From assembly GCA_004376975.1 (NCBI GenBank), contig SOJA01000085.1:1-8052 (forward strand): 8,052 nt of DNA. The letters are read 5' to 3'. Each line of letters opens with the position of its first letter. Position 1 is the stretch's first letter. The notes beneath the pieces were generated by a model. That model did no database searches and had not been told where the DNA came from. It worked only from the letters and a program-made list of their open reading frames with translations. Below, piece by piece: positions 1-8,052 of the stretch. This stretch comes from Candidatus Bathyarchaeota archaeon. Its GTDB lineage: Archaea; Thermoproteota; Bathyarchaeia; Bathyarchaeales; UBA233. The position numbers and the translations under genes are program-made.

Positions 1-83
1 CGGCTACAAGTTAAGTACCACCGAAAATTGTCGTAAGGTCGCTGAATCTCAAACAACACGCCCTTACCACTATGCGAAAGCCG

Positions 84-97
84 ATGCATGCATGCAT
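84..97. repeat. ATGCATGCAT palindrome, copy a
   Basis: A perfect 14-base palindrome (ATGCATGCATGCAT) lies in the left-edge region upstream of the small gene starting at 229. It is the longest pure copy of the iterated element seen in this window. No convincing gene covers it. Confidence 0.8.
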
Positions 98-190
98 TTT
101 CATCTTCGATCCTTTCTCCCAACCTACACTTGCTGTACTTCTAATGAAGACATGTATCTAAAGGTTTTCGTGATGCGGCATAAGGATTTG

Positions 191-198
191 TATTTATA
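191..198 (+). promoter_or_regulatory. possible TATA box for the 55-aa gene
   Basis: The AT-rich octamer TATTTATA ends 30 bases before the ATG at 229, close to the expected archaeal TATA-to-start distance with a short leader. AGGTGAG directly after it (198-204) looks like a Shine-Dalgarno core but is too far from 229 to serve that start. Tentative. Confidence 0.35.
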
Positions 199-228
199 GG
201 TGAGCGAATTGATGATTGATGGATAGAT

Positions 229-396
229 ATGAGATATAGAGTTATTATTCAAACTCAGGTTGGAAATGAAAAGGTTGAAGAGTTAAACAAAGAAGAATCT
301 ACTATAGATGACTGCTTAGACATCCTCAACGAGTGGATACCCAACGTTATTCAAAGAAAGAATATCGTAAACATACAAGTACTCAAAGAAGATTAA
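229..396 (+). CDS. small protein of unknown function, 55 aa
   Basis: A short frame from ATG to TAA begins MRYRVIIQTQVG and ends NIVNIQVLKED. I do not recognise the family. The pattern is a beta strand (residues 3-10), a charged linker, an amphipathic helix (about 25-43, acidic then basic) and a second strand (46-52), so a small compact beta-alpha-beta fold is plausible. Coding character is supported by balanced charged and hydrophobic residues, a TATA-like sequence at 191-198, and the fact that it ends 14 bases before the end of the convergent gene at 411, so the two pack tightly without overlap. No signal peptide or cysteine cluster. The existence of the gene is reasonably likely; its function is unknown. 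Confidence 0.55.
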   Translation: MRYRVIIQTQVGNEKVEELNKEESTIDDCLDILNEWIPNVIQRKNIVNIQVLKED

Positions 397-410
397 GGCT
401 GCACGCGCAT

Positions 411-797
411 CTAGAAGGTTTCAAGTTTATAGAGAACTTTTAATCCTTTCAGTTTCTTATGAACTGTGTCTCCAAGCTTCGATATATCTTCTAACCCTAT
501 TTCATGTTTCCAATCATATACAAAGTCATGTTTCCCTATAGACGGCTTGAAACCTATTTCTTGAAGTTTCACCATTACAGATGTAGGCGCTTTTCCTTCA
601 CTGTTGAACCATAGCGTCAAATATGTCTCTGTAACTGCCTCATGTATTGCCTTAGCTTTCTCATCCAACTCTCTTGCTTTTAGCTTAGCATCAATTCTTT
701 CGATTTTTTGATTCAACACCTTCTCTTGATCTCCTATAGATTCAAGCTCTTTTTCTAATTTTAGGGTTTGCTTGTGTACCGCTCGCATTTCTACCAT
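411..797 (-). CDS. coiled-coil protein of unknown function
   Basis: The frame is open from a TTG at 842, but the ATG at 797 (128 aa, beginning MVEMRAVHKQ) is preferred because an AT-rich TATA-like stretch (830-838) sits about 35 bases upstream, and because the residues before it do not form a signal peptide. ATG 788 is also possible. Residues about 8-55 are strongly charged with heptad-like hydrophobics and should form a coiled coil. The C-terminal half is compact and aromatic (GKHDFVYDW, then a helix, then KVLYKLETF), suggesting a strand-helix-strand domain that could pair through the coiled coil. There is no signal peptide or membrane helix, so the protein is probably cytoplasmic. It looks like a conserved archaeal hypothetical, but I cannot name a family. 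Confidence 0.7.
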   Translation of the reverse strand: MVEMRAVHKQTLKLEKELESIGDQEKVLNQKIERIDAKLKARELDEKAKAIHEAVTETYLTLWFNSEGKAPTSVMVKLQEIGFKPSIGKHDFVYDWKHEIGLEDISKLGDTVHKKLKGLKVLYKLETF

Positions 798-885
798 CAC
801 AGTAAGTAGAAAACTAGAAGTATTTTCTAGAATAAATATCAAGTTCTAAAGCGTCAAATATGTCAAATCTCGATATACAAGGTGC

Positions 886-895
886 CATGCATGCA
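886..895. repeat. ATGCATGCAT-type palindrome, copy b
   Basis: CATGCATGCA, containing the TGCATGCA core, lies in the divergent gap between the coiled-coil gene and the zinc gene at 991. Its right flank (AAAACAAGATTTTAG) resembles the flank of copy e at 2361 (AAACGGACAAAGTTAAT), hinting at a shared longer ancestor. Confidence 0.75.
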
Positions 896-920
896 AAACA
901 AGATTTTAGTTTCACTAGAG

Positions 921-1098
921 TCTCTCTGTGCTCTCCAACTGTATGTTTCAACCAAGCTCCAATATCTGAAGTTTAAGAAATCGTAAGGATATGGCAGATA
1001 CTTGTCTCGCTAAGCCATGCGCGAAGTGTGGTTGCAGAATCACCGGTGTAAACTACCACTGTTCAAAATGTGATGTTTGCCTCTGCTTCCTCTGCGGC
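921..1098 (+). repeat. long inverted repeat, left arm
   Basis: This 178-base arm matches the reverse complement of 6086-6263 without gaps. The first 70 bases, which are the upstream region, differ at 7 positions. The last 108 bases, the first 36 codons of the zinc gene, are identical. The perfect run is 975-1098 (124 bases). The arms lie about 5 kb apart in inverted orientation, so recombination between them would flip the intervening genes. Confidence 0.9.
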
Positions 1099-1161
1099 AT
1101 CAAAACCTACGTTGAAACAGGGAAGGCTATATGTCCAAAATGTGGAAACGAACTCAAGTAA
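991..1161 (+). CDS. 56-aa Cys-rich zinc-binding protein, copy 1
   Basis: The protein begins MADTCLAKPCAKCGC and has eleven cysteines and one histidine in 56 residues (C5, C10, C13, C15, H23, C24, C27, C30, C32, C35, C48, C51). The spacing is CxxCxC, then HCxxCxxCxCxxC, then CPKCG near the end. This is enough for two or three structural zinc sites, combining a cross-brace-like N-terminal cluster with a C-terminal zinc-ribbon knuckle. Such proteins usually bind nucleic acid or protein, but no role is shown here. A second gene at 6023-6193 on the other strand has the same length and all the same metal ligands. TAAGGAT abuts the ATG; AATATC at 961-966 could be the TATA element of a leaderless transcript. 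The stop codon runs straight into palindrome copy c. Confidence 0.8.
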   Translation: MADTCLAKPCAKCGCRITGVNYHCSKCDVCLCFLCGIKTYVETGKAICPKCGNELK

Positions 1162-1170
1162 TGCATGCAT
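1161..1170. repeat. ATGCATGCAT palindrome, copy c
   Basis: A perfect ATGCATGCAT shares its first base with the TAA stop of the zinc gene. It runs into GCATATATGC (1165-1174), another palindrome, and is followed by TTTTT at 1180-1184. The block could act as a 3' end signal for the zinc gene, or its TATATA could be a promoter for a downstream frame starting at 1199. Confidence 0.8.
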
Positions 1171-1198
1171 ATATGCGAGTTTTTCTGTGGTGTTTTGT

Positions 1199-1366
1199 AT
1201 GTTTAGAGAGACAAAAATCTTGACCAGGTGTGCTTTATTAAAAGAAAAAGGGAATTTTAAGGGTGCTTATGAATGGCCCCAAGTTGAGCCGTATCTGCCG
1301 CAAATTGTTACAACGTCGAATATGTCGACTTTGAAGCGCACGCGCCAGCTTAAGGTTGTTTCCTAA
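1199..1366 (+). CDS. possible 55-aa small ORF, weakly supported
   Basis: A frame from ATG 1199 (MFRETKILTRCALLKEKG) to TAA 1366 lies between the zinc gene and the convergent secreted-protein gene, overlapping the stop of the latter by four bases. In its favour, CATATATG at 1167-1174 sits about 28 bases before the ATG, as in a leaderless archaeal gene. Against it, the product resembles no family I know, and the frame continues upstream antisense-free through the zinc gene, which makes a chance open frame quite possible. Kept only because it would otherwise leave 200 bases unexplained. Confidence 0.22.
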   Translation: MFRETKILTRCALLKEKGNFKGAYEWPQVEPYLPQIVTTSNMSTLKRTRQLKVVS

Positions 1367-1845
1367 TCGAAGTGTATCATTCCCTCGTACCATATATCAG
1401 GGCCCTCAGCACCGCCTCCTGGGCCCCACCAGTTTCCATGTCCATGTAGGTTCACCAGCTCGTCTGTACCGCTTATGATTACCCACTGACCATACCAATC
1501 CTGCCCTTCTGGTTTCTTGCCAACAAGTTGGATAACCATGGAACCCGGTTTTCCCTCTACTGTACCAGTAAAGGTACTTCGAAGCCATACGTTCCAAAAG
1601 CCCGAAGAAAACATTCCCACTCTGAAGACGGCCACTGCGGTTCCTTCGAAGTCTCCTTCCCAAGTCTCCCACTCTATTGCGTCAATGAACAGGTTGCCGT
1701 CGGCCTCCCTTGCACCAGTGACTTCAAATGTGTAGTCAAAATATCCTGATGCAGCTGTAGGTGTTGCTGCATGCACTGTGGTCGATAGCGTAGATAGAAT
1801 CACAACTATGCTCATCAGAGATAATGCTGATAACATTTTTCTCAT
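1363..1845 (-). CDS. secreted DUF3224-like beta-barrel protein
   Basis: The 160-aa product starts MRKMLSALSLMSIVVILST and has a textbook signal peptide (positive n-region, hydrophobic core 5-20, likely cleavage after VHA at residue 26). The mature part is rich in Gly, Trp and beta-prone residues and has no C-terminal anchor, so it should be released or loosely surface-bound. The order ASG-Y-F-x-F near the start, then F-x-GTVEGKPGSMVIQ, then G-x-W-x-I-x-SGTDEL-x-NLHGHG resembles the DUF3224 family, whose fold is like allene oxide cyclase barrels; this is pattern recognition, not a search. An asparagine-linked sequon is absent, unlike the neighbouring surface proteins. The ATG has a perfect archaeal Shine-Dalgarno 6 bases upstream, fixing the start. 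Confidence 0.85.
   Translation of the reverse strand: MRKMLSALSLMSIVVILSTLSTTVHAATPTAASGYFDYTFEVTGAREADGNLFIDAIEWETWEGDFEGTAVAVFRVGMFSSGFWNVWLRSTFTGTVEGKPGSMVIQLVGKKPEGQDWYGQWVIISGTDELVNLHGHGNWWGPGGGAEGPDIWYEGMIHFD
1768..1775. repeat. TGCATGCA core inside a coding region
   Basis: The core octamer of the iterated palindrome occurs within the signal-peptide cleavage region of the secreted protein gene (codons for V-H-A-A). It lacks the extended ATGCATGCAT form and may be coincidental. Confidence 0.4.
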
Positions 1846-1851
1846 AGTTTC

Positions 1852-1861
1852 TCACCTCCTT
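1852..1861 (-). promoter_or_regulatory. strong Shine-Dalgarno of the secreted-protein gene
   Basis: On the minus strand the sequence reads AAGGAGGTGA, followed by six bases and ATG. It contains GGAGGTGA, the full complement of the archaeal 16S rRNA 3' end, and is by far the strongest ribosome binding site in the window. It implies a transcript with a real leader and high translation. Confidence 0.85.
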
Positions 1862-2185
1862 CCTCCCAGTAGAGAGAGAATAGACAGGATTATGGGACAA
1901 TACCAGATTTAAGACTTTATGAAACATTTAAGCCATATTTCCATAAACAAGTTCTATGTAAACTCATGATTCATTTTGACCTGCATTTATGATACAAAGC
2001 ACGAGCGTCTCTCAACAAAAAAGGACAGAAAACAAATACCACTGACAATGCATGCATCTTCTAGAGAAAGAACCTAGAAATTACATCCATAAATCTTTTA
2101 TCAAGACTGGAGCACTGGAATTAGGAGAGGATTCAGATTCGCACTGTGAACCCTCCAGCCACGCACCATTGGATGTTGGCCCAAC
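1862..2185. other. divergent intergenic region
   Basis: About 320 bases without a convincing gene. Its left part should hold the minus-strand promoter of the secreted-protein gene; CTTAAAT-type TATA candidates on the minus strand lie around 1908-1915 and 1926-1933. Palindrome copy d is at 2048-2057 followed by TCTAGAGA. An open frame crosses 2052-2270 but has an uneven, non-protein-like composition and is in a different frame from the zinc ribbon at 2186. ATAAATC (2090-2096) is another TATA-like stretch on the plus strand. Confidence 0.5.
2048..2057. repeat. ATGCATGCAT palindrome, copy d
   Basis: A perfect ATGCATGCAT lies between two divergent genes, followed after two bases by TCTAGAGA. Copy g at 3743 shows the same arrangement, so the conserved unit may be longer than the palindrome itself. 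Confidence 0.8.
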
Positions 2186-2187
2186 AT
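2173..2187. promoter_or_regulatory. palindrome overlapping the start of the 40-aa zinc ribbon gene
   Basis: ATGTTGG-C-CCAACAT is a perfect inverted repeat with 7-base arms around one central base. Its right arm includes the first two bases of the ATG at 2186. It could be an operator, or an mRNA structure hiding the start codon, although a one-base loop does not favour a full RNA hairpin. The regulatory role is inference. Confidence 0.45.
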
Positions 2188-2308
2188 GCAGACATGTAGA
2201 AAATGCAAAAAAAGCCTTCCAGAGATCCAATTCACAGACAACGAACCCATATGTTCAACCTGTAGAATAATCTATTCCAAGAGGAAGCAGCCACTCCTCA
2301 GGCTTTGA
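2186..2308 (+). CDS. 40-aa zinc-ribbon protein
   Basis: A very short frame encodes MQTCRKCKKSLPEIQFTD and ends with a basic tail (SKRKQPLLRL). It has a classic four-cysteine zinc ribbon: CRKC at residues 4-7 and CSTC at 23-26, with 15 residues between the knuckles. The regular knuckle spacing and the basic, hydrophobic tail are hard to explain by chance, although a longer open frame (2052-2270) overlaps it. The upstream in-frame stop is at 2147-2149, so the ATG at 2186 is the only good start; no Shine-Dalgarno is seen. A perfect palindrome spans the start codon. The gene ends 110 bases before the anchored glycoprotein gene, with palindrome copy e between. Probable role is nucleic-acid or protein binding; the exact function is unknown. 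Confidence 0.55.
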   Translation: MQTCRKCKKSLPEIQFTDNEPICSTCRIIYSKRKQPLLRL

Positions 2309-2360
2309 CTCACCAGGACTATGGTACCAGCCAGGCTCATAGAAAGCTTTCTGCTGCAGA

Positions 2361-2371
2361 GCATGCATGCA
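2361..2371. repeat. ATGCATGCAT-type palindrome, copy e
   Basis: GCATGCATGCA lies between the zinc-ribbon gene and the glycoprotein gene, about 12 bases upstream of the possible TATA box at 2383-2390. Confidence 0.75.
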
Positions 2372-2382
2372 AACGGACAAAG

Positions 2383-2390
2383 TTAATAAT
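2383..2390 (+). promoter_or_regulatory. possible TATA box of the glycoprotein gene
   Basis: TTAATAAT lies about 30 bases before the ATG at 2419, fitting an archaeal promoter with a leaderless or very short-leader transcript. A second AT-rich stretch, ATATAATT (2399-2406), is too close to the ATG to act as its TATA box. Confidence 0.4.
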
Positions 2391-2418
2391 CTAAAGGATA
2401 TAATTTCTGTTGAAGCAG

Positions 2419-3126
2419 ATGAAAACAGGTTATGTGTGGGCTGCATATCTAATCTTTATTCAGTTTCTACTTACTGGACTATTAATTCAAGTAAGTCAAG
2501 CCACAAGATTTGCAGGTGTTCACCCTGGAGACTCATCAGAGTACTTCGCAACTCTTTCTGGGAACATGAGTAATATGTATCTGCAGTTTGAGTATGCGAA
2601 AGTCATTGTATTAGGTGTTTCAGGTTTGGAAATTACATTCAAAGCTCACGCGCTTAACGGAAGTGTATGGACGAACACAACATACGTCCATAATTTGGAG
2701 ACCGGAGAAAATGGATCCCTCTTTTTCATTGCAGCGAACCTTACTGCAGGCGACCTAATTTTTCCCTCTGCTCCTTTTCACCCTGGTACATTTACTTTTG
2801 TAGGTGCCACGATCAATGAGACAATTTATCGGGATTACCCAGGTGGACCTATAGAAGTTAACCATTGGAACGTAGTGATTTCATACAGCAAACAAGAAGC
2901 GAATTTCACAGATGTAGCCAATGTCTATTGGGAAAAATCAACAGGTAGGCTTATTGAGCTATCATGGTTTTCAGATGTAAAGGCAGAATCTGCATATGCA
3001 TGGGGAGAGATGAGTATGATTATCCCGGAGCTCAACGTAGTGATTTTTCTTCCTTTATTTATGACTATAACTCTATTCGTGGCAATACTGCGTAGAAATA
3101 TTCAACGAGAATTAAACAGGTCTTAG
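2419..3126 (+). CDS. secreted, C-terminally anchored surface glycoprotein
   Basis: From ATG 2419 the product has 235 aa; the frame also has a TTG three codons earlier, but the ATG gives a better signal peptide (MKTGYVWAAYLIFIQFLL, cleavage likely after SQA at 28). The extracytoplasmic part is beta-rich with several N-x-S/T sequons (NMS, NGS, NTT, NLT, NET, NFT), as expected of an N-glycosylated archaeal surface protein. The end has a proline-glutamate motif (IIPELN), one hydrophobic helix (about 206-226) and a basic tail (RRNIQRELNRS). This matches the archaeal PEF-type or S-layer-like C-terminal anchor seen also in the 489-aa protein. The central domain is not recognised. The stop overlaps the stop of the convergent membrane-protein gene by four bases. 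Confidence 0.85.
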   Translation: MKTGYVWAAYLIFIQFLLTGLLIQVSQATRFAGVHPGDSSEYFATLSGNMSNMYLQFEYAKVIVLGVSGLEITFKAHALNGSVWTNTTYVHNLETGENGSLFFIAANLTAGDLIFPSAPFHPGTFTFVGATINETIYRDYPGGPIEVNHWNVVISYSKQEANFTDVANVYWEKSTGRLIELSWFSDVKAESAYAWGEMSMIIPELNVVIFLPLFMTITLFVAILRRNIQRELNRS

Positions 3127-3470
3127 CTAAATGCATGCATGCGCAGAACAGGATATGGCAAGATTCCGAGAATCATCAGCATTGTGAGAATCAACAAGAC
3201 TACGGGTATTCCTAGAAATATTAACGAGAGTATTATCCGGGTTCTTTGAGTAGGCGCAGTCATGTAGAGTTGTGGACGGAATGCCATAACTGAACCGAAA
3301 AATGAAAAAACGATTATTATCGGGACTGCAATGCCCATCCATACCCATACATGGTATTCGAACATCCACAATAGAAACAAGGCAATTCCATAAAGTGGAA
3401 AGACAATTCCAAGTATTTTCCTCAAGTTTGATATGCCACCCTTTTTTCTTATAAAATACTGGTTTTTCAA
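3123..3470 (-). CDS. small three-helix membrane protein
   Basis: The 115-aa frame has three hydrophobic segments (about 17-37, 43-64 and 80-104) with basic residues before the first and between the second and third, typical of a small integral membrane protein of unknown function. The only start in this frame is a TTG at 3470 (MKNQYFIRKKGGISN) with no Shine-Dalgarno. A different frame offers ATG 3486 (MIRHKIEKPVFYKKK), which would join smoothly if one base were removed at the A-run read from 3447-3442; the product would then be 120 aa. It lies just behind the Gly-rich zinc gene on the same strand, so the two are probably co-transcribed. Palindrome copy f encodes part of its C-terminus (RMHAFS). 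Confidence 0.7.
   Translation of the reverse strand: MKNQYFIRKKGGISNLRKILGIVFPLYGIALFLLWMFEYHVWVWMGIAVPIIIVFSFFGSVMAFRPQLYMTAPTQRTRIILSLIFLGIPVVLLILTMLMILGILPYPVLRMHAFS
3131..3142. repeat. ATGCATGCAT palindrome, copy f
   Basis: ATGCATGCATGC lies inside the last codons of the minus-strand membrane-protein gene (read as R-M-H-A), five bases past the stop of the convergent glycoprotein gene. Its position at a convergent 3' end is compatible with a role in termination, or with insertion that extended the coding frame. Confidence 0.8.
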
Positions 3471-3506
3471 TCTTGTGGCGAATCATATACTGCAATCTGC
3501 AAGGAA

Positions 3507-3677
3507 TCAAGATGATGGCATCATAGCTGTTCCACATTCGGGGCACTTAGTGGAAAGACATGGAGTTCCTCTCATGTGGGGTGTCTTGTACCCGCATTTT
3601 GGACAAACACAGTAAGCTGGTCCACCAGTCCCTTGACGCCGTCCTCCTCCGCCTCTGCCCAAGCCTCTTCCGCTCAC
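3507..3677 (-). CDS. 56-aa Gly/Arg-rich zinc-binding protein
   Basis: A frame in the minus strand begins at GTG 3677 (MSGRGLGRGGGGRRQGTGG) and continues into AYCVCPKCG, then PHMRGTPC, then KCPECG, ending at TGA 3507. Ligands are C23, C25, C28, H34, C40, C45 and C48. I recall this layout, a GRG-rich head followed by CxCPxCG, PHxxGxPC and CPxCG, from short archaeal and anaerobe proteins found near NifB/NifX-type iron-cofactor genes; no such partner is visible here. The basic Gly/Arg head suggests nucleic-acid contact. An upstream GTG at 3686 is also in frame, but the S-G-R-G start fits the family better. The membrane-protein gene follows on the same strand. A TATA-like AATTTATTATG lies about 35-45 bases upstream. 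Confidence 0.75.
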   Translation of the reverse strand: MSGRGLGRGGGGRRQGTGGPAYCVCPKCGYKTPHMRGTPCLSTKCPECGTAMMPSS

Positions 3678-3714
3678 ATTAATCACTTCACATGCTGAAT
3701 AGAGAGACTATGCA

Positions 3715-3725
3715 CATAATAAATT
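3715..3725 (-). promoter_or_regulatory. possible TATA box of the Gly-rich zinc gene
   Basis: On the minus strand CATAATTTATTATG lies about 40 bases before the GTG at 3677, giving a predicted leader of roughly 15-20 bases. Palindrome copy g sits about 20-30 bases further upstream. Confidence 0.4.
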
Positions 3726-3742
3726 ATGGTTTGTATCTCAAA

Positions 3743-3756
3743 ACATGCATGCATGT
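3743..3756. repeat. ATGCATGCAT palindrome, copy g
   Basis: ACATGCATGCATGT is a perfect 14-base palindrome, followed directly by CTAGAGAC (TCTAGAGA when read with its last base). It lies between the 3' end of the 489-aa surface-protein gene and the promoter of the Gly-rich zinc gene. It is the rightmost copy in the window. Confidence 0.8.
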
Positions 3757-3792
3757 CTAGAGACAAACTATCAAGAAGAAAAGATCCGCCTG

Positions 3793-5262
3793 TTAAACTC
3801 TGGATATTACTCTCTTTCTCCTATACACCAAGACTACTAGGAGAGAAACAAACATGAAGAGTGGTAGAATGAGGAATGAAGGAAACTCTGGAATTATCTG
3901 TACCGATTCTTCTGAATGCCACGCTCTTGAGGCGGGTCTGCTCTCATTATACTCAATACCATAATTGTCTTTGACATCTAGTGTGACAAACCAACTGCCA
4001 GTGGTCCAGCGAGGGTCTGTCTCGAAAGTTACATTGCCATGCATGTTTGTCAGAATAATTCTTGGACATATTTCACCTGGGCCCCATAGAGCCCAAGTGT
4101 AACTTAAAATCACACCTTCAGGATCAGAATGTGTGCTGTTTGTAGTGTATTCAATAGTGTCCCCTGGCTCCGCAGAAAAAGGCCCGAATATGGTTAGTAT
4201 AGGTGTCCCGATTACTCTGAACTCGTTTACGATCACGTCAACAAAGTTGCTGCTATTATGAGATACAGAAATCGTCGCTGTAATCGTATGGTTACCTCTC
4301 GAAAGCTCCGATTCGTCGATAGTGTAATTGAAGGATTTCCGTTCACCTGCTTCGAGCGTTTCATTCTCCCATGCCTGGAGGAGAGTCATACCCCAATAGA
4401 GAGTAAGATTGTAAGTGTCCGTGATGTTACCATAATTAACAAGTGAAGCTCTAACCAACGCACTTTCACCCGAGATTATGGGAGATTCAAAGATTGACCC
4501 ATTATCGAAAGGTTCCACCTTAAAACTTTCGACGCCAGTCACTATGACTTCGGTCTGAAACTGTCCGTTCACTACGCAATGGGGAATTACAGGGTAGAAG
4601 TCCATGTATCCTGGCATCAGTGCCACGGCAAGATCCGACCATGTTATGTTAAGATGGGACTTTCCGATTCTTATCACATTGAATGTCATTTCGAAGACTG
4701 TTGCGTTGTCATCTGGACAGTTAAAAACGGGAGCACCAAAGAGTCCTCCAAAGGAGACATATGCTATCGTGTAAGTTCCTGCGTCGTCGTCAACTGTTTC
4801 ATTGGCCAATAAAACAGGATCCCACAGGACTCCATCAGGGTACGTGTCCACAGGAACTTTTACAGTGTGACTTACATAGTCCAAAATAAGTGGGTTCCAG
4901 CTGAAATCAATTTGGAATCCGTAAAGGTTGCCGAGAGAATAGTTATAGCGACCGCCTCCATCAGGGGGGAGTGGTTCTCCCCACGCCCATGTATCTGGGG
5001 TTGGAGGGGATGTGTCACCAAGGTACACGGTGTTTGTCAAATTGAAGATCTTAACGCTAATAGTGATGTTATCACCTGGGCTTGCTCTAGCATTTTCTGG
5101 ATCAACAAAGACAACGGGCATATCAGATTGAAGAGTCATTGACGCAAAAGCTTTATCTCCTATTATTTCATCAGCTTGCACCTTCTCAATTCTAAAAGTT
5201 ACGCTTAACAAACTCGTGAAAAGAACCACCATGACTAACATTAGAACAAGTTTTCTCTCCAA
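3793..5262 (-). CDS. cohesin-like and PKD-like cell-surface protein with C-terminal anchor
   Basis: The 489-aa product has a signal peptide (MERKLVLMLVMVVLFTSLL, cleavage near VQA at 30). Residues about 48-240 look like a cohesin-type beta-sandwich (VDPENARASPGDNITISV, then YGFQIDFSWNPLILDYV, then VFEMTFNV). Residues 241-345 resemble a CARDB/adhesion-type Ig fold (NYGNITDTYNLTLYW, AGERKSFNYTI). Residues 352-435 resemble a PKD domain (FSAEPGDTIEYTT, SYTWALWG, DVKDNYG). The end is IIPEFPSFLILPLFMF, a hydrophobic helix and RRKR, the archaeal PEF-type anchor. Sixteen N-x-S/T sequons imply heavy glycosylation. A structural or adhesive surface role is likely; I see no catalytic motif. The start is TTG 5262, chosen because it keeps the basic n-region and has GTGAGGG seven bases upstream. 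Confidence 0.88.
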   Translation of the reverse strand: MERKLVLMLVMVVLFTSLLSVTFRIEKVQADEIIGDKAFASMTLQSDMPVVFVDPENARASPGDNITISVKIFNLTNTVYLGDTSPPTPDTWAWGEPLPPDGGGRYNYSLGNLYGFQIDFSWNPLILDYVSHTVKVPVDTYPDGVLWDPVLLANETVDDDAGTYTIAYVSFGGLFGAPVFNCPDDNATVFEMTFNVIRIGKSHLNITWSDLAVALMPGYMDFYPVIPHCVVNGQFQTEVIVTGVESFKVEPFDNGSIFESPIISGESALVRASLVNYGNITDTYNLTLYWGMTLLQAWENETLEAGERKSFNYTIDESELSRGNHTITATISVSHNSSNFVDVIVNEFRVIGTPILTIFGPFSAEPGDTIEYTTNSTHSDPEGVILSYTWALWGPGEICPRIILTNMHGNVTFETDPRWTTGSWFVTLDVKDNYGIEYNESRPASRAWHSEESVQIIPEFPSFLILPLFMFVSLLVVLVYRRKRVISRV

Positions 5263-5269
5263 ACCATTT

Positions 5270-5276
5270 CCCTCAC
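5270..5276 (-). promoter_or_regulatory. Shine-Dalgarno supporting the TTG start at 5262
   Basis: On the minus strand GTGAGGG stands seven bases before the TTG. This partial match to GGAGGTGA is what decides the TTG over the internal ATG codons at residues 8 and 11, which would remove the charged start of the signal peptide. Confidence 0.5.
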
Positions 5277-5310
5277 AATGTCTCTAGCTAGATTAGATTT
5301 CTTAGAGGAT

Positions 5311-5320
5311 GTATAAAAAG
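5311..5320 (-). promoter_or_regulatory. TATA box of the 489-aa surface-protein gene
   Basis: On the minus strand CTTTTTATAC is a good archaeal TATA element. Transcription would start about 25 bases downstream near 5290, leaving a leader of roughly 28 bases that contains the Shine-Dalgarno at 5270-5276. Confidence 0.6.
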
Positions 5321-5387
5321 TGTGATAGAACAAATTCCATACGTGCTTTTCAGCTACCGCAAAAGGTGTTGCACGCGTATGTATGAA

Positions 5388-5951
5388 TCAGGTATTTCTT
5401 GTCCTATGCTTCCTGTTTTTTCTGAATCCATAACCTGTAAGTACGATTCCAACTGCAACTGACGCTATTCCTAAGATTAAGGTTCTCCATAGTGTATTAT
5501 TCAAGAGTTGGTTATGGTGTAGAGCAGTTATGATTACAGCTACAGGAGCATCCGTTGGATTGGTAACTCTCACACCTCTAATTGTTTTCCATGTGGTTGG
5601 GACATCAAATACAACATTAATCCAACTGTCTTGGTTTGATGTAACGCTAATGTTGTTTAGTCCTCCATCAGTTAGTAATTCAATTTGCGTGCCTCTCAAA
5701 AACGCCCAACTGCTTGCACCCCACAAAGAATCTACCCCAATTGGTCCATGGATTACATATACCTCAACCTGTTTTGTAGATTTAATCCAATGCCAGTAGC
5801 TTAGTTTGTTTGATAAATGCGGTCCAATTACTACGCATGCGTTGTCATGTAACTCAGTTTCCCAAGTGTATAAATTCAGATACGAGAACACGCTTGTTGT
5901 TACTCCAAATACTAGTAGTAAAGAACCTATCCATATTATTCTGATCTTCAT
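5388..5951 (-). CDS. bitopic membrane protein with extracytoplasmic domain
   Basis: The 187-aa product has an N-terminal hydrophobic segment (IIWIGSLLLVFGVTTSVFS, 5-23), an extracytoplasmic beta-rich domain (about 26-152) and a C-terminal helix (155-174) followed by a strongly basic tail (FRKNRKHRTRNT). This topology places the middle domain outside with the tail in the cytoplasm. The stretch VEVYVIHGPIG through WINVVFDVPTTWKTIRGVRVTNPTDAPVAVIIT suggests a jelly-roll or GOLD-like beta-sandwich, but I cannot name a family. Sequons NIS and NNT are present. ATG 5951 has a purine-rich GGAAGGGGAA just upstream and a TATA-like TTCTTAAAA at 5997-6005. The gene precedes the 489-aa surface-protein gene on the same strand but with its own promoter between them. 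Confidence 0.78.
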   Translation of the reverse strand: MKIRIIWIGSLLLVFGVTTSVFSYLNLYTWETELHDNACVVIGPHLSNKLSYWHWIKSTKQVEVYVIHGPIGVDSLWGASSWAFLRGTQIELLTDGGLNNISVTSNQDSWINVVFDVPTTWKTIRGVRVTNPTDAPVAVIITALHHNQLLNNTLWRTLILGIASVAVGIVLTGYGFRKNRKHRTRNT

Positions 5952-5996
5952 TCAATTCCCCTTCCGACGATAATCACTTCTATAGCATCAATACTG

Positions 5997-6005
5997 TTTT
6001 AAGAA
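5997..6005 (-). promoter_or_regulatory. possible TATA box of the bitopic membrane-protein gene
   Basis: TTCTTAAAA on the minus strand lies about 46-54 bases before ATG 5951, giving a leader of about 20 bases that includes the purine-rich ribosome binding site. It lies in the short 71-base gap after the second zinc gene. Confidence 0.4.
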
Positions 6006-6022
6006 CTCCGAATGTATGCACG

Positions 6023-6193
6023 CTACGAGAGCTGGCTCCCACATTTAGGACAGGTGGCCTTCCCAGTTTTTCTGTAGATGTTGACGCCGCAGAGGAAGCA
6101 GAGGCAAACATCACATTTTGAACAGTGGTAGTTTACACCGGTGATTCTGCAACCACACTTCGCGCATGGCTTAGCGAGACAAGTATCTGCCAT
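6023..6193 (-). CDS. 56-aa Cys-rich zinc-binding protein, copy 2
   Basis: Same length and the same twelve metal ligands as the gene at 991-1161 (C5, C10, C13, C15, H23, C24, C27, C30, C32, C35, C48, C51). The first 36 residues are identical in both DNA and protein. The last 20 differ at 10 positions (here GVNIYRKTGKATCPKCGSQLS) and the DNA there is only about 70% identical. Conservation of every ligand despite that divergence argues that both copies are functional. The upstream 70 bases are also shared at 90%, so the two are likely to have similar expression. The gene is divergent from the 360-aa protein gene. TGTATGCACG follows the stop, a degraded relative of the palindrome after copy 1. 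Confidence 0.8.
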   Translation of the reverse strand: MADTCLAKPCAKCGCRITGVNYHCSKCDVCLCFLCGVNIYRKTGKATCPKCGSQLS

Positions 6194-6263
6194 ATCCTTA
6201 CGATTTCTTGAACTTCAGATATAGGAACTTGGCTGAAATATACAGTTGGAGAGCACGGAGAGC
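6086..6263 (-). repeat. long inverted repeat, right arm
   Basis: Reverse complement partner of 921-1098, covering the upstream region and first 36 codons of zinc gene copy 2. Identity is 63 of 70 upstream and 108 of 108 in the coding part; downstream of 6086 it falls to 44 of 63. Confidence 0.9.
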
Positions 6264-6318
6264 CCCATGCGAAACTGAATGTATGCATTCATTTGTGGCG
6301 GTAAACCTATTAAATCCA

Positions 6319-6333
6319 CCGAAATTCTTTAAT
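6319..6333 (+). promoter_or_regulatory. possible BRE/TATA of the 360-aa gene
   Basis: CCGAAATTCTTTAAT combines a BRE-like CGAAA with an AT-rich TATA-like element. It lies about 35 bases before ATG 6366, implying a leader of about ten bases. No Shine-Dalgarno is visible before the ATG. Confidence 0.35.
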
Positions 6334-6365
6334 GTCAAATAGTAAGATAGGTCGTTTGAGCATAT

Positions 6366-7448
6366 ATGATTCATGTAGGTATTGATAGCGCTCCAATTTC
6401 AAAGGCAACGGTCACTCTTAATGGGAAGACGAAAGGTGAATTTGTTGCTAATCTCGGAGTTTCCGTTTCTACCCATGATAAAAAGAAATTCGAGTCTGCA
6501 TACGAAGATGCACTTTGCGAATTATTTGGTGATTTCCCCAAAAAACGAAAAAAGAAAATCTACAAAGGTGCCCATCTAGTCGCCCAAACCATGGAGAAAG
6601 CTCCTGAAATTGCAGCGAAAATTATTGATAATTTGGAGGATGTGATTGCACACATTGATGTATACTGTGCGTATTATTCGCGAGAATATATCTCAATCTA
6701 TGGTCAAAGCGAAGGTCAAAGGCTCTCTCCTCCAATCTTTGTGAAGAAGACCCAGAACGCCTTTCCTCACGTATGCGCAATGTGGTATGCTGAGACTTAT
6801 CTCGAATTGGAGCAACCATTACGTCTTGAAATTGACTATTTTCAGTCCGCGACTACTCCAGGATGGAGAAAGCTTTTAGGCAATGTGGAAACGGGGAAAC
6901 TAGACCTTAAATTCTTTTTCGGAGGAGATGAATGCAATCCACTGATCTCATTAGCTGATCTTGTCCTAAAGCTCATTCGTATTTATCATCATGGCACAGT
7001 TGATGGGCGCTCTCTACTACAACCATTACGTGAAAAGTGCCAATCGTTAGGAGGAGGAAAAAGAAGAACGTGGTTCCACAATCTGGGTTCACGGGGTTTC
7101 CTGATCAAAGCTACAGCACCAGATCTTCCTCTCCAGATTGATGCTAAGCCATTCCTTAAACACCCGATTTTCTTCTATTTATGGAATCCAAGATCACCCG
7201 AGAAGAAAGAGGTAATGAAAAGCTTTCAATGGTCTCCTGCGTACAACGCAATAGCTGCCAGTGCTTCCTTGAAACAAGGAGGCTTCAAGTCATTCTCTTT
7301 TGCAGAGGATACTCATATCTGGAACCCAGATGTTGATTTTATGGTTCCAATCTCAAAAGAAGATGAGTTGAACATAAAAGAACTAGAGAAGATCAGCTAT
7401 AAACTGCCAAAAATCTGTGGAATCAATAACCTTCCTATTCCTATCTAA
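6366..7448 (+). CDS. uncharacterised protein, possible RNase H-like (DUF3800-like) fold
   Basis: The 360-aa product starts MIHVGIDSAPISKATVTLNG and has no signal peptide or membrane helix. The N-terminal 210 residues show an order reminiscent of DUF3800, a predicted RNase H-fold nuclease family: a first strand with an acidic residue (VGIDSAP, D7), a lysine-rich helix region (KKRKKKIYKGAHLV, 59-72), a middle strand (AHIDVYCAYY, 95-104), LRLEIDYFQS with D157, and NPLISLADLVLKLIR with D198, like the closing Q-x-ADL motif. The DES signature of typical DUF3800 is absent, and the 150-residue C-terminal extension (ending ISKEDELNIKELEKI) is not recognised. DUF3800 proteins often occur in mobile or defence contexts, but here the gene stands alone, divergent from zinc gene copy 2. 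The gene is certain; the fold is tentative. Confidence 0.8.
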   Translation: MIHVGIDSAPISKATVTLNGKTKGEFVANLGVSVSTHDKKKFESAYEDALCELFGDFPKKRKKKIYKGAHLVAQTMEKAPEIAAKIIDNLEDVIAHIDVYCAYYSREYISIYGQSEGQRLSPPIFVKKTQNAFPHVCAMWYAETYLELEQPLRLEIDYFQSATTPGWRKLLGNVETGKLDLKFFFGGDECNPLISLADLVLKLIRIYHHGTVDGRSLLQPLREKCQSLGGGKRRTWFHNLGSRGFLIKATAPDLPLQIDAKPFLKHPIFFYLWNPRSPEKKEVMKSFQWSPAYNAIAASASLKQGGFKSFSFAEDTHIWNPDVDFMVPISKEDELNIKELEKISYKLPKICGINNLPIPI

Positions 7449-7488
7449 CATAATTTTAAAACTAAGGCGCACTTTCGCGGACAAGAGA

Positions 7489-7508
7489 TACCCTTTGGTC
7501 TTAGGGTA
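7489..7508. repeat. hairpin downstream of the 360-aa gene
   Basis: TACCCT and AGGGTA form a 6-base stem around an 8-base loop, 40 bases past the stop at 7448. No T-run follows on the plus strand, so it is not a standard terminator. It could stabilise the 3' end of the message. Confidence 0.35.
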
Positions 7509-7560
7509 CTCAAATTATCGAAGGGCTTAGCGTTATTTAAGCTTTGTGAAGAATTTCTCT

Positions 7561-7644
7561 ATGTATACATGCTCGAAAGGTATATGTTACAATAGCCTCC
7601 GTGGCAATCCGACGAACGACTCAATCGTCGGACTTAACATCTAG
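7561..7644 (+). CDS. possible 27-aa ORF, weak
   Basis: ATG 7561 opens a frame reading MYTCSKGICYNSLRGN and ending at TAG 7644, four bases into the stop of the convergent zinc-ribbon gene. TTATTTAAG at 7533-7541 lies about 25 bases before the ATG, as for a leaderless archaeal gene. The frame is too short to judge by composition, and the 8-base hairpin at 7608-7632 inside it suggests the region may instead be a non-coding 3' region. Confidence 0.15.
   Translation: MYTCSKGICYNSLRGNPTNDSIVGLNI
7608..7632. terminator. 8-base hairpin after the zinc-ribbon gene
   Basis: TCCGACGA and TCGTCGGA pair perfectly around a 9-base loop. On the minus strand the hairpin begins about eight bases past the stop of the zinc-ribbon gene (7641), a natural position for a 3' stabiliser or terminator. 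A T-run is lacking, so it is not a canonical archaeal poly-T terminator. Confidence 0.45.
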
Positions 7645-7856
7645 ATCCATAACGCTTTGTAGCAGCTAGGACAGTAATACACGTTTTGAGTGCGTCGGTT
7701 GTGACTTATCACCATGTCACCGACCTTTAATTGTACGCCGCAACGGCAGCAACGTAGCTTTGATTCGCGTACTTCAACTTCGTAGAAGCTGTGTGGTTTA
7801 GGCTTTAATGCGCGGTTGATCTGGGCCACGTTTAACTTGAATGTTGTCCACGGCAT
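7641..7856 (-). CDS. 71-aa zinc-ribbon / LIM-like protein
   Basis: The product begins MPWTTFKLNVAQINRALKPK and has a basic N-terminal third followed by a zinc module: CCRCG (C36/C37 and C39), a middle GDMVISHNRRT with H52, and YYCPSCY (C62, C65). Two CxxC knuckles 22 residues apart fit a treble-clef or LIM-like zinc ribbon. The basic residues (KPKPH, NRRT) suggest nucleic-acid binding, by inference only. The ATG at 7856 is well supported: TTTTAAATG on the minus strand lies about 28 bases upstream, so the transcript is probably leaderless. The gene is convergent with the 360-aa gene, with about 190 non-coding bases between. GTTAACAA repeats lie about 50 bases upstream of the TATA box. Confidence 0.75.
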   Translation of the reverse strand: MPWTTFKLNVAQINRALKPKPHSFYEVEVRESKLRCCRCGVQLKVGDMVISHNRRTQNVYYCPSCYKALWI

Positions 7857-7879
7857 ACCTAATATGTACGCGGTTATAC

Positions 7880-7888
7880 ATTTAAAAC
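7880..7888 (-). promoter_or_regulatory. TATA box of the zinc-ribbon gene
   Basis: On the minus strand GTTTTAAAT is centred about 28 bases before ATG 7856, predicting a start of transcription within a few bases of the ATG. This is the clearest leaderless promoter of the window. Confidence 0.55.
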
Positions 7889-7934
7889 GCTTTGCATCAC
7901 TTCAAATAGACAAAACACCAAATACACAACAAAG

Positions 7935-7952
7935 GTTAACAAGCGTTAACAA
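7935..7952. repeat. tandem GTTAACAA repeat, 10-base period
   Basis: GTTAACAA occurs twice with starts ten bases apart (7935 and 7945), each containing the palindrome GTTAAC. One helical turn between half-sites is a common operator layout. It sits upstream of the zinc-ribbon promoter. Confidence 0.4.
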
Positions 7953-7991
7953 CATATTAAGGCAAACGAAGGGTTCTACGTGGTTGAATGT

Positions 7992-8011
7992 AAAAAAGAG
8001 GCTAAGAGCCT
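7992..8011 (-). terminator. possible minus-strand terminator at the right edge
   Basis: On the minus strand AGGCT-CTT-AGCCT is followed after C by six T residues, like an intrinsic terminator. It would end a gene entering from beyond the right edge of the window. The stem is short and the loop has only three bases. Confidence 0.3.
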
Positions 8012-8052
8012 AGACCAAACTAGCCAACAGCTCCTTCTAGAGGATTAAGCTC

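Follow-up and report, generated by a model that had tools for sequence, protein, structure and literature searches.

TGCA tracts in intergenic DNA of some Bathyarchaeia resemble stitches left by the excision, insertion or rejoining of DNA

Mammalian interstitial telomeric repeats are inserted at double-strand breaks, usually together with a deletion and sometimes with random filler or a target duplication, and nucleotides in register with the repeat are found at the break (PMC2246262). Deletion-coupled insertions and repeat-mediated deletions, the mechanism of which was unknown to the authors, have been reported in Haloquadratum walsbyi (PMC3119063). Palindromic (A)n/(T)n microsatellites of Fusarium mitochondria are intergenic, optional between species and located beside insertions and deletions (indels), and they have been proposed to be mobile (PMC7218506). 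Integron gene cassettes have been reported in archaea, too (PMC9668308). As for short palindromes, HIP1 is hugely over-represented in certain lineages of cyanobacteria (PMC4390886), and REP palindromes are extragenic high-copy elements of 20-40 bp with tagged ends (PMC3733652). We analyzed an 8,052-nt stretch of DNA from Candidatus Bathyarchaeota archaeon (assembly GCA_004376975.1, contig SOJA01000085.1, positions 1 to 8,052; the whole stretch is hereafter called the window), together with related genomes. Relatives of its proteins place the contig in Candidatus Bathyarchaeia. The element under study is a short run of the self-complementary tetranucleotide TGCA. Such TGCATGCATGCA-like tracts are scattered through intergenic DNA and have the appearance of stitches at points of DNA removal, insertion or rejoining.

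Perfect (TGCA)n runs of ~10-13 nt in genomes of tract-rich Bathyarchaeia are found above chance at sites of deletion, insertion and relocation. A tract is present in the broken copy of a gene, and segments lie flush with tracts. On balance, we favor the view that the motif is a junction scar, left at joints and reused later as a joining point. In this scheme, end joining would add, or carry in, a few TGCA units at the joint. Since TGCA is self-complementary, annealing would be possible between any two ends bearing it, whatever the register, and a short tract would remain. An existing tract might later be reused for breakage or joining: a segment between two tracts could drop out, leaving one of them, or a copy of it, bounded by a tract on each side, could arise elsewhere. 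Scars would be kept mostly between genes because those within genes are harmful. If true, this reading reveals a hitherto unknown route of gene loss, gain and relocation in these archaea. Gene loss and gain in uncultured archaea are mostly inferred, not observed; a stereotyped joint scar would allow deletion, insertion and transfer to be counted and dated across Bathyarchaeia, and it would be a useful marker even if the enzyme behind it is an ordinary one.

An iterated palindrome in the window had been proposed in an earlier, sequence-only reading, and the proposal was borne out. The exact 8-mer TGCATGCA matches nine times (two of the matches overlap) at eight places (positions 85/89, 888, 1162, 1768, 2049, 2364, 3132 and 3746). 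Dinucleotide shuffles give an expectation of 0.18 for the window, and nine matches were reached in none of 200 shuffles. When runs were delimited as maximal TGCA-periodic stretches of at least 8 nt containing TGCATGCA, the coordinates proposed earlier proved correct within one base. Seven of the runs measure 10-14 nt and are either intergenic or at a gene end; the single coding run (1768) has only 8 nt. Outside the window, the 8-mer is found in all 256 genomes of the class, mostly in 3-40 copies (lowest 1); 15 of the 256 carry at least 80 copies, with a maximum of 427 in 1.9 Mb. Counts were further compared with an order-2 Markov expectation in samples of 100-400 kb from four relatives (G070, G187, G073 and G063). 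This comparison had been set beforehand as the test that could overturn the claim, and it revealed an excess in all four samples, not counts near expectation (65 vs 4.9 in G070, 56 vs 10.2 in G187, 47 vs 3.2 in G073 and 17 vs 1.9 in G063). In three of the four (G070, G187 and G073) TGCATGCA is the top over-represented 8-mer, and in G063 only CGCGCGCG and GCGCGCGC outrank it. In G061, represented by a single 18-kb contig, it occurs once vs 0.4 expected. Local accident or chance is thus rejected by the shuffles, the class-wide counts and the Markov excess. The intergenic placement was upheld as well: in the four samples, with a coding share of 80-85% according to a home-made gene caller, 155 of the 185 sites are intergenic and 30 coding, so that the density is unequal and ~25 times higher between genes. 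Such a bias toward intergenic DNA argues against the motif being a general methylation site.

Rather than one fixed palindrome, the unit is a perfect (TGCA)n run, 10-13 nt in length and free in register. Intergenic runs of 10, 11, 12 and 13 nt number 27, 32, 19 and 17, respectively (expected 0.7, 0.1, 0.0 and 0.05), and those of 14, 15 and at least 16 nt number 3, 1 and 0 in the sampled intergenic DNA. All four registers are seen, and run ends lean to A/T. Among runs of at least 11 nt, the ATGC unit accounts for 72 (0.6 expected) and the next named tetranucleotide units for 3. This is not the picture expected of an ordinary microsatellite, as the sampled intergenic DNA holds no runs of 16 nt or more and other tetranucleotide units are near expectation. 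Around 154 tracts, no conserved flank was found in the 308 flank sides; past the first mismatch, in-phase TGCA sequence is not above background. By our own count, flank similarity between tracts within a sample involves 25 of the 154. The idea that the tract belongs to a longer element is accordingly rejected, there being no shared flank in the 308 sides and only 25 of 154 tracts beside repeats. These properties define how the tract relates to known short palindromes. The likeness to HIP1, noted in the sequence-only reading, holds for frequency only: the HIP1 sequence GCGATCGC is not matched, and the tract consists of TGCA runs that are mostly intergenic, register-free and located at DNA junctions. 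With REP elements it shares the character of a high-copy extragenic palindrome, but it measures 10-13 nt and nothing around it is conserved. The Fusarium microsatellites are similar in being palindromic short repeats that are intergenic and indel-linked; however, they are mononucleotide runs in mitochondria, and the excerpt of that report shows no tract sealing defined gene losses.

The register test also bears on roles as a signal. A fixed palindromic binding site, as had been suggested for a nucleoid or regulator protein, is rejected, because all four registers are present and the length of 10-13 nt matters rather than one centre. A regulatory palindrome in the broader sense, serving as a site for a global regulator, a nucleoid protein or a terminator, would agree with the intergenic location and with a higher tract frequency 5-50 nt downstream of stop codons (54 vs ~25 expected) and in convergent regions (39 vs 21). 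Against it are the depletion within 50 nt of starts (15 vs ~31 expected), the absence of a fixed register and of a T-run or other context, and the two gaps in a broken gene that are sealed by tracts. The same gaps speak against the idea that a transcript 3' end signal is the main role. Placement after stops and away from starts fits harmless DNA as well as a signal, and we regard the regulatory explanation as highly improbable.

The broken gene comes from a comparison of G070 and G073. This is one close pair of fragmented assemblies, of which 1.05 and 0.92 Mb were compared; they are ~94% identical where alignable (301 kb). An enolase-superfamily gene of 370 codons is intact in G070 and broken at two places in G073. 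At one of them, a 10-nt tract has taken the place of 791 nt that comprise the start-containing 5' part and DNA upstream of the gene, the joint reading ..gaatg-gATGCATGCA-gaaatt..; G070 carries no tract at either end of this segment. Inside the gene, 173 nt have been swapped for 11 nt, and the joint bears CATGCATGCA, the last six letters of which are present in G070. Other places show the same kind of exchange on a different scale. A 27-nt stretch in one genome corresponds to a 12-nt tract-bearing stretch in the other. In place of a 2170-nt acetyl-CoA synthetase gene found in G073, G070 has 36 nt that include a tract, and in place of a 1864-nt glutamate-synthase-like gene found in G070, G073 has 120 nt plus a tract.

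A total of 363 tracts were examined in this pair, and for 44 rows (25 + 19, some representing one locus seen twice) both flanks lie in the compared syntenic DNA. Unequal alleles occur at 14 distinct loci. According to our own reading, the tract-bearing allele is the shorter one at 10 of them and the longer one at three, and at one the tract is common to both alleles. The 10 include one locus with tracts in both alleles, two where a CATGCA hexamer ends the longer allele and one with flanks of only 78-82% identity. No clean tract-only insertion was found among the 14. At the junction edges, the first tract letter equals the next letter of the other genome in 8 of 12 cases (3 expected, P 0.003); the 12 edges exclude two of 14 in which a phase-shifted tract is present in both genomes, and with these included the count is 9 of 14. 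Such one-letter sharing fits short overlaps at joining, not long primer annealing. The shared tract positions with nearby substitutions argue against an assembly artefact.

Beyond individual loci, tracts were counted as near an alignment end when within 12 nt, and the null distribution was obtained by relocating tracts at random in intergenic DNA (500 trials). Internal alignment ends between G070 and G073 are near a tract in 27 of 138 cases vs 8.1±2.9 expected, and 27 was reached in none of the 500 trials; in a smaller sequence set of the same pair the count is 20 of 91 vs 5.8±2.5. For ends of paralogous segments in G073 it is 18 vs 6.0±2.6. A passive origin of this association can be imagined, in which palindromic alternating purine-pyrimidine tracts are fragile (prone to Z-DNA or slippage) and attract breaks, having themselves arisen by mutation and slippage. 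Indeed, GC-rich alternating runs are also in excess between genes (28 vs 10.9 in G070, 33 vs 6.9 in G073 and 17 vs 2.0 in G063, but 3 vs 1.8 in G187), mixed alternating runs are enriched there 1.6-2.1-fold and occur near breakpoints (17 vs 8.4; 5 of 500 trials), and one tract differs in length, 13 vs 9 nt. However, the excess of TGCA-class alternating runs between genes is 19- to 33-fold (e.g. 185 vs 6.5 in G070), AT-rich runs show none except in G063 (6 vs 2.1), and the samples lack a long tail of repeat lengths. At the 791-nt gap the tract is in the gene-losing allele and not in the intact one. GC-rich runs, considered as equal breakpoint partners, are rejected, being found near breakpoints 2 times vs 1.4 expected. 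Fragility by itself is therefore an improbable explanation in our estimate.

Tracts also stand at the borders of DNA that has moved. At one place, two tracts enclose 1.4 kb with a beta-helix gene in G073, and a single tract occupies the corresponding position in G070. A HAD-hydrolase segment of 768 nt is present in G070 as two 99.1% identical copies, each in a context unrelated to that of the other, and every one of the four ends has a tract; the inner edges of the copies are alike and the outer edges unlike. Other relocated gene segments, among them a TBP gene and a 551-nt gene segment, have a tract at one end or at both. The pairs L140/L116 and L031/L111 each have a tract in common at a joint, the far sides of which differ. 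Much of this could be explained by the main rival of the scar reading, a dedicated cassette-moving recombinase that crosses over at the tract, as in integrons or pdif modules; deletions would then result from recombination between tracts or with secondary sites. The HAD-hydrolase segment, directly bordered by tracts in both of its contexts, the tract-pair and single-tract alleles at the beta-helix locus, the L140/L116 and L031/L111 joints and a duplicated zinc-ribbon segment in the window (see below) are as this rival would have them. The broken enolase-superfamily gene is explained less well, since the 791-nt gap is sealed by a tract and the longer allele has none at either end.

Known recombinase sites have a fixed register or core, and the tract has neither. 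Likewise, an attC site is a long imperfect palindrome with conserved core sites. An attC-like conserved flank was found on none of the 308 flank sides. The likeness to integrons lies in single genes moved as units between recombination sites; the difference is a 10-13-nt TGCA tract in any register instead of the attC fold. As to the enzyme, tyrosine recombinases (PF00589) are present in 28 of 30 genomes and show no link with tract number, IntI and serine recombinases not having been searched for. PF00589 is undetected in two of the 15 tract-rich genomes (G063 and G066) and is abundant in some tract-poor ones. Taken together, we consider a dedicated recombinase unlikely, albeit the most serious competitor. 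As a separate observation, an open reading frame (ORF) piece that we named tyrosine-recombinase-like (L150:6427-6669) starts within a tract (MHAY...) next to the second copy of the HAD cassette; it is apparently a gene cut at the tract.

Of the roles suggested in the sequence-only reading, remnants of a tiny mobile element came nearest, in that tracts are found at the ends of moved, inserted or deleted DNA. Taken literally, this would make the tract the terminus of small transposons or miniature inverted-repeat transposable elements (MITEs), and lone tracts their footprints. A 214-nt repeat in G070 does have ATGCATGCAT at each end, with a related copy in G073, hairpin-containing repeats start at tracts, and one insert is accompanied by a 9-nt duplication. 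Yet only 25 of 154 tracts have flanks like those of another tract, relocated segments hold ordinary genes (TBP, HAD hydrolase), an inverted repeat beyond the tract is absent in the one element compared by eye, and no target duplication was seen at the other unequal loci. We therefore give the transposon explanation little credence. The hairpin repeats deserve a note of their own. They form a family starting at the tract (L031:9042-9259, L070:1540-1771 and L144:16761-16993), and by eye the hairpin arms covary between copies (AGTGGTT/AACCACT vs GGAGG/CCTCC); a small RNA or a single-strand DNA element is possible.

Returning to the junction-scar reading, the usual candidates for end joining were compared with tract abundance. 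Ku is patchy: 54 of 256 class genomes have it, and it is undetected throughout the 15 richest (P 0.026, uncorrected for kinship). For the reverse transcriptase (RT) family RVT_1 the figures are 13 of 256 and 0 of the 15, a zero that is also likely by chance (P 0.45), and other RT families were not searched. Neither of them, nor tyrosine recombinases, shows a positive association with tracts, so that these usual suspects are not supported and were rejected as the cause. One may go further and imagine that some Bathyarchaeia possess a hitherto undescribed joining system, independent of Ku and RVT_1, that adds TGCA units and thereby makes any ends cohesive, the genome becoming a set of re-stitchable cassettes with scars. 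We offer this as a speculative possibility, less probable than the scar itself. If self-complementary ends are indeed used in this manner, they would represent a new solution for joining broken DNA and a possible tool.

The nearest parallels are the Fusarium microsatellites discussed above, the interstitial telomeric repeats and the events in Haloquadratum. With the telomeric repeats, the tracts share short repeat runs at joints, mostly accompanied by a deletion and at times by random filler or a target duplication, and in-register nucleotides, and the trait of a repeat present only in the break-changed allele is found at the 791-nt gap, the 27-nt replacement and the gene absences. They differ in being archaeal, in consisting of a self-complementary tetranucleotide and in occurring where RVT_1 is found in 0 of the 15 richest genomes. 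In addition, in-register overlap is 1 nt for the tracts and often longer for telomeric repeats, and clean insertions, seen for none of the tracts, are reported to make up about a fifth of the telomeric-repeat cases (PMC2246262). Haloquadratum walsbyi, also an archaeon, likewise shows unrelated DNA between conserved flanks and loss of a direct-repeat segment leaving one repeat; correspondingly, G070 and G073 have unrelated alleles at one place and a direct repeat collapsed to one. For the coupled events, that study describes no conserved sequence (PMC3119063), whereas here a stereotyped tract recurs at joints. A scar of this type would make the Haloquadratum 'deletion-coupled insertion' puzzle testable and might lead to the enzyme. 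Among the matches listed in a search of open-licence literature (titles and beginnings of abstracts), no earlier description of the TGCA tract was found. We rate an archaeal, register-free, self-complementary tract at joints as new as a system; filler DNA at breaks is already known.

A number of observations weigh against the tract being a junction scar. Most alignment ends between G070 and G073 (111 of 138) are away from any tract. For paralogous ends the counts are 16 vs 8.9±3.4 in G070 (null maximum 21) and 1 of 20 in G187, and G063 has no such repeats. In 30 of the 44 rows the tract, or a version of equal or nearly equal length (0-2 substitutions or a one-base shift), is present in both genomes, so that these rows do not show how it arose. 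At three of the 14 unequal loci it is the longer allele that has the tract; one of these is a transposon-like 56-nt insert with a 9-nt target duplication. The direction of change is given by gene intactness at one locus and is presumed at the rest. Junctions often contain other filler of 1-120 nt, the tract not being the sole one, and in-register overlap never exceeds 1 nt in the 12 edges, which speaks against long primer annealing. Runs longer than the typical unit exist elsewhere, namely 16 nt in G002 and at least 18 nt in the tract-poor G076. Finally, no enzyme was found, and Ku is missing from the 15 richest genomes.

Within the window, all exact copies of TGCATGCA lie in the first 3.8 kb. 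The earlier statement that the right half has no copies holds for these, but not for near-copies, which are present at 6012-6021 and 6279-6292 and bracket the inverted copy of a duplicated segment. Copy 1 of this segment (905..1160, plus strand) encodes a 56-aa zinc-ribbon-like protein (ORF 991-1161; the assignment comes from weak matches under the cut-off). It is bordered on the left by a 10-nt tract at 886..895 and on the right by another at 1161..1170, which starts in the last base of the ORF stop codon. Copy 2 (6024..6279, minus strand) is inverted and 88% identical to copy 1. It is flanked by 11-nt direct repeats GAATGTATGCA, at 6010..6020 on one end and 6277..6287 on the opposite end, which in our reading are decayed tracts.

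The longest tract in the window (ATGCATGCATGCAT, 14 nt) is located between genes at 84..97, and so is a 10-nt tract at 2048..2057. The 8-nt coding copy (1768..1775) falls within a DUF3224 ORF (1363-1845, minus strand) and is probably not a true tract. An 11-nt tract (2361..2371) lies upstream of a 234-aa ORF (2422-3126), and a 12-nt one (3744..3755) downstream of a 489-aa secreted-type ORF (3793-5262, minus strand). Another 12-nt tract (3131..3142) lies between convergent ORFs, 2422-3126 (plus) and 3123-3470 (minus). Its description as being between genes is correct in this sense, yet the tract also encodes the C-terminal codons (..RMHAFS, stop) of ORF 3123-3470, as expected if this ORF was cut there. 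A (TGCA)n run has a stop codon in no frame. The window matches 11 of 12 relatives, the matches being short, scattered and each confined to one gene plus its border; synteny comparison found two neighbouring window genes together in none of the 12. A viral origin was rejected, the single viral match being weak (24% identity). ARAGORN reported no tRNA in the window; a stretch at its end (7998-8035) recurs in several relatives at 92-95% and by eye resembles a tRNA gene fragment truncated at the end of the contig.

Similar tracts may exist more widely. The two 8-mers that outrank TGCATGCA in G063 (L081-L085) occur 13 times vs 1.1 expected (GCGCGCGC, intergenic in 9 of the 13) and 12 times vs 0.8 (CGCGCGCG), and TGCGCGCGCA is also present in filler of G070; in the G063 lineage GCGCGCGC/CGCGCGCG are perhaps a second joint filler. 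In a phylum-wide draw of 398 genomes, at least 10 forward copies of TGCATGCATG were found in nine, seven of them belonging to the class set. The control pattern GTACGTACGT has 16+14 copies in G539 and at most 7 per strand in other genomes, and it is possibly another iterated tetranucleotide tract. Two genomes outside the 256 of the class, G473 and G544, carry 23+16 and 10+6 copies of TGCATGCATG, respectively, and the range of TGCA tracts may thus extend further than the class set.

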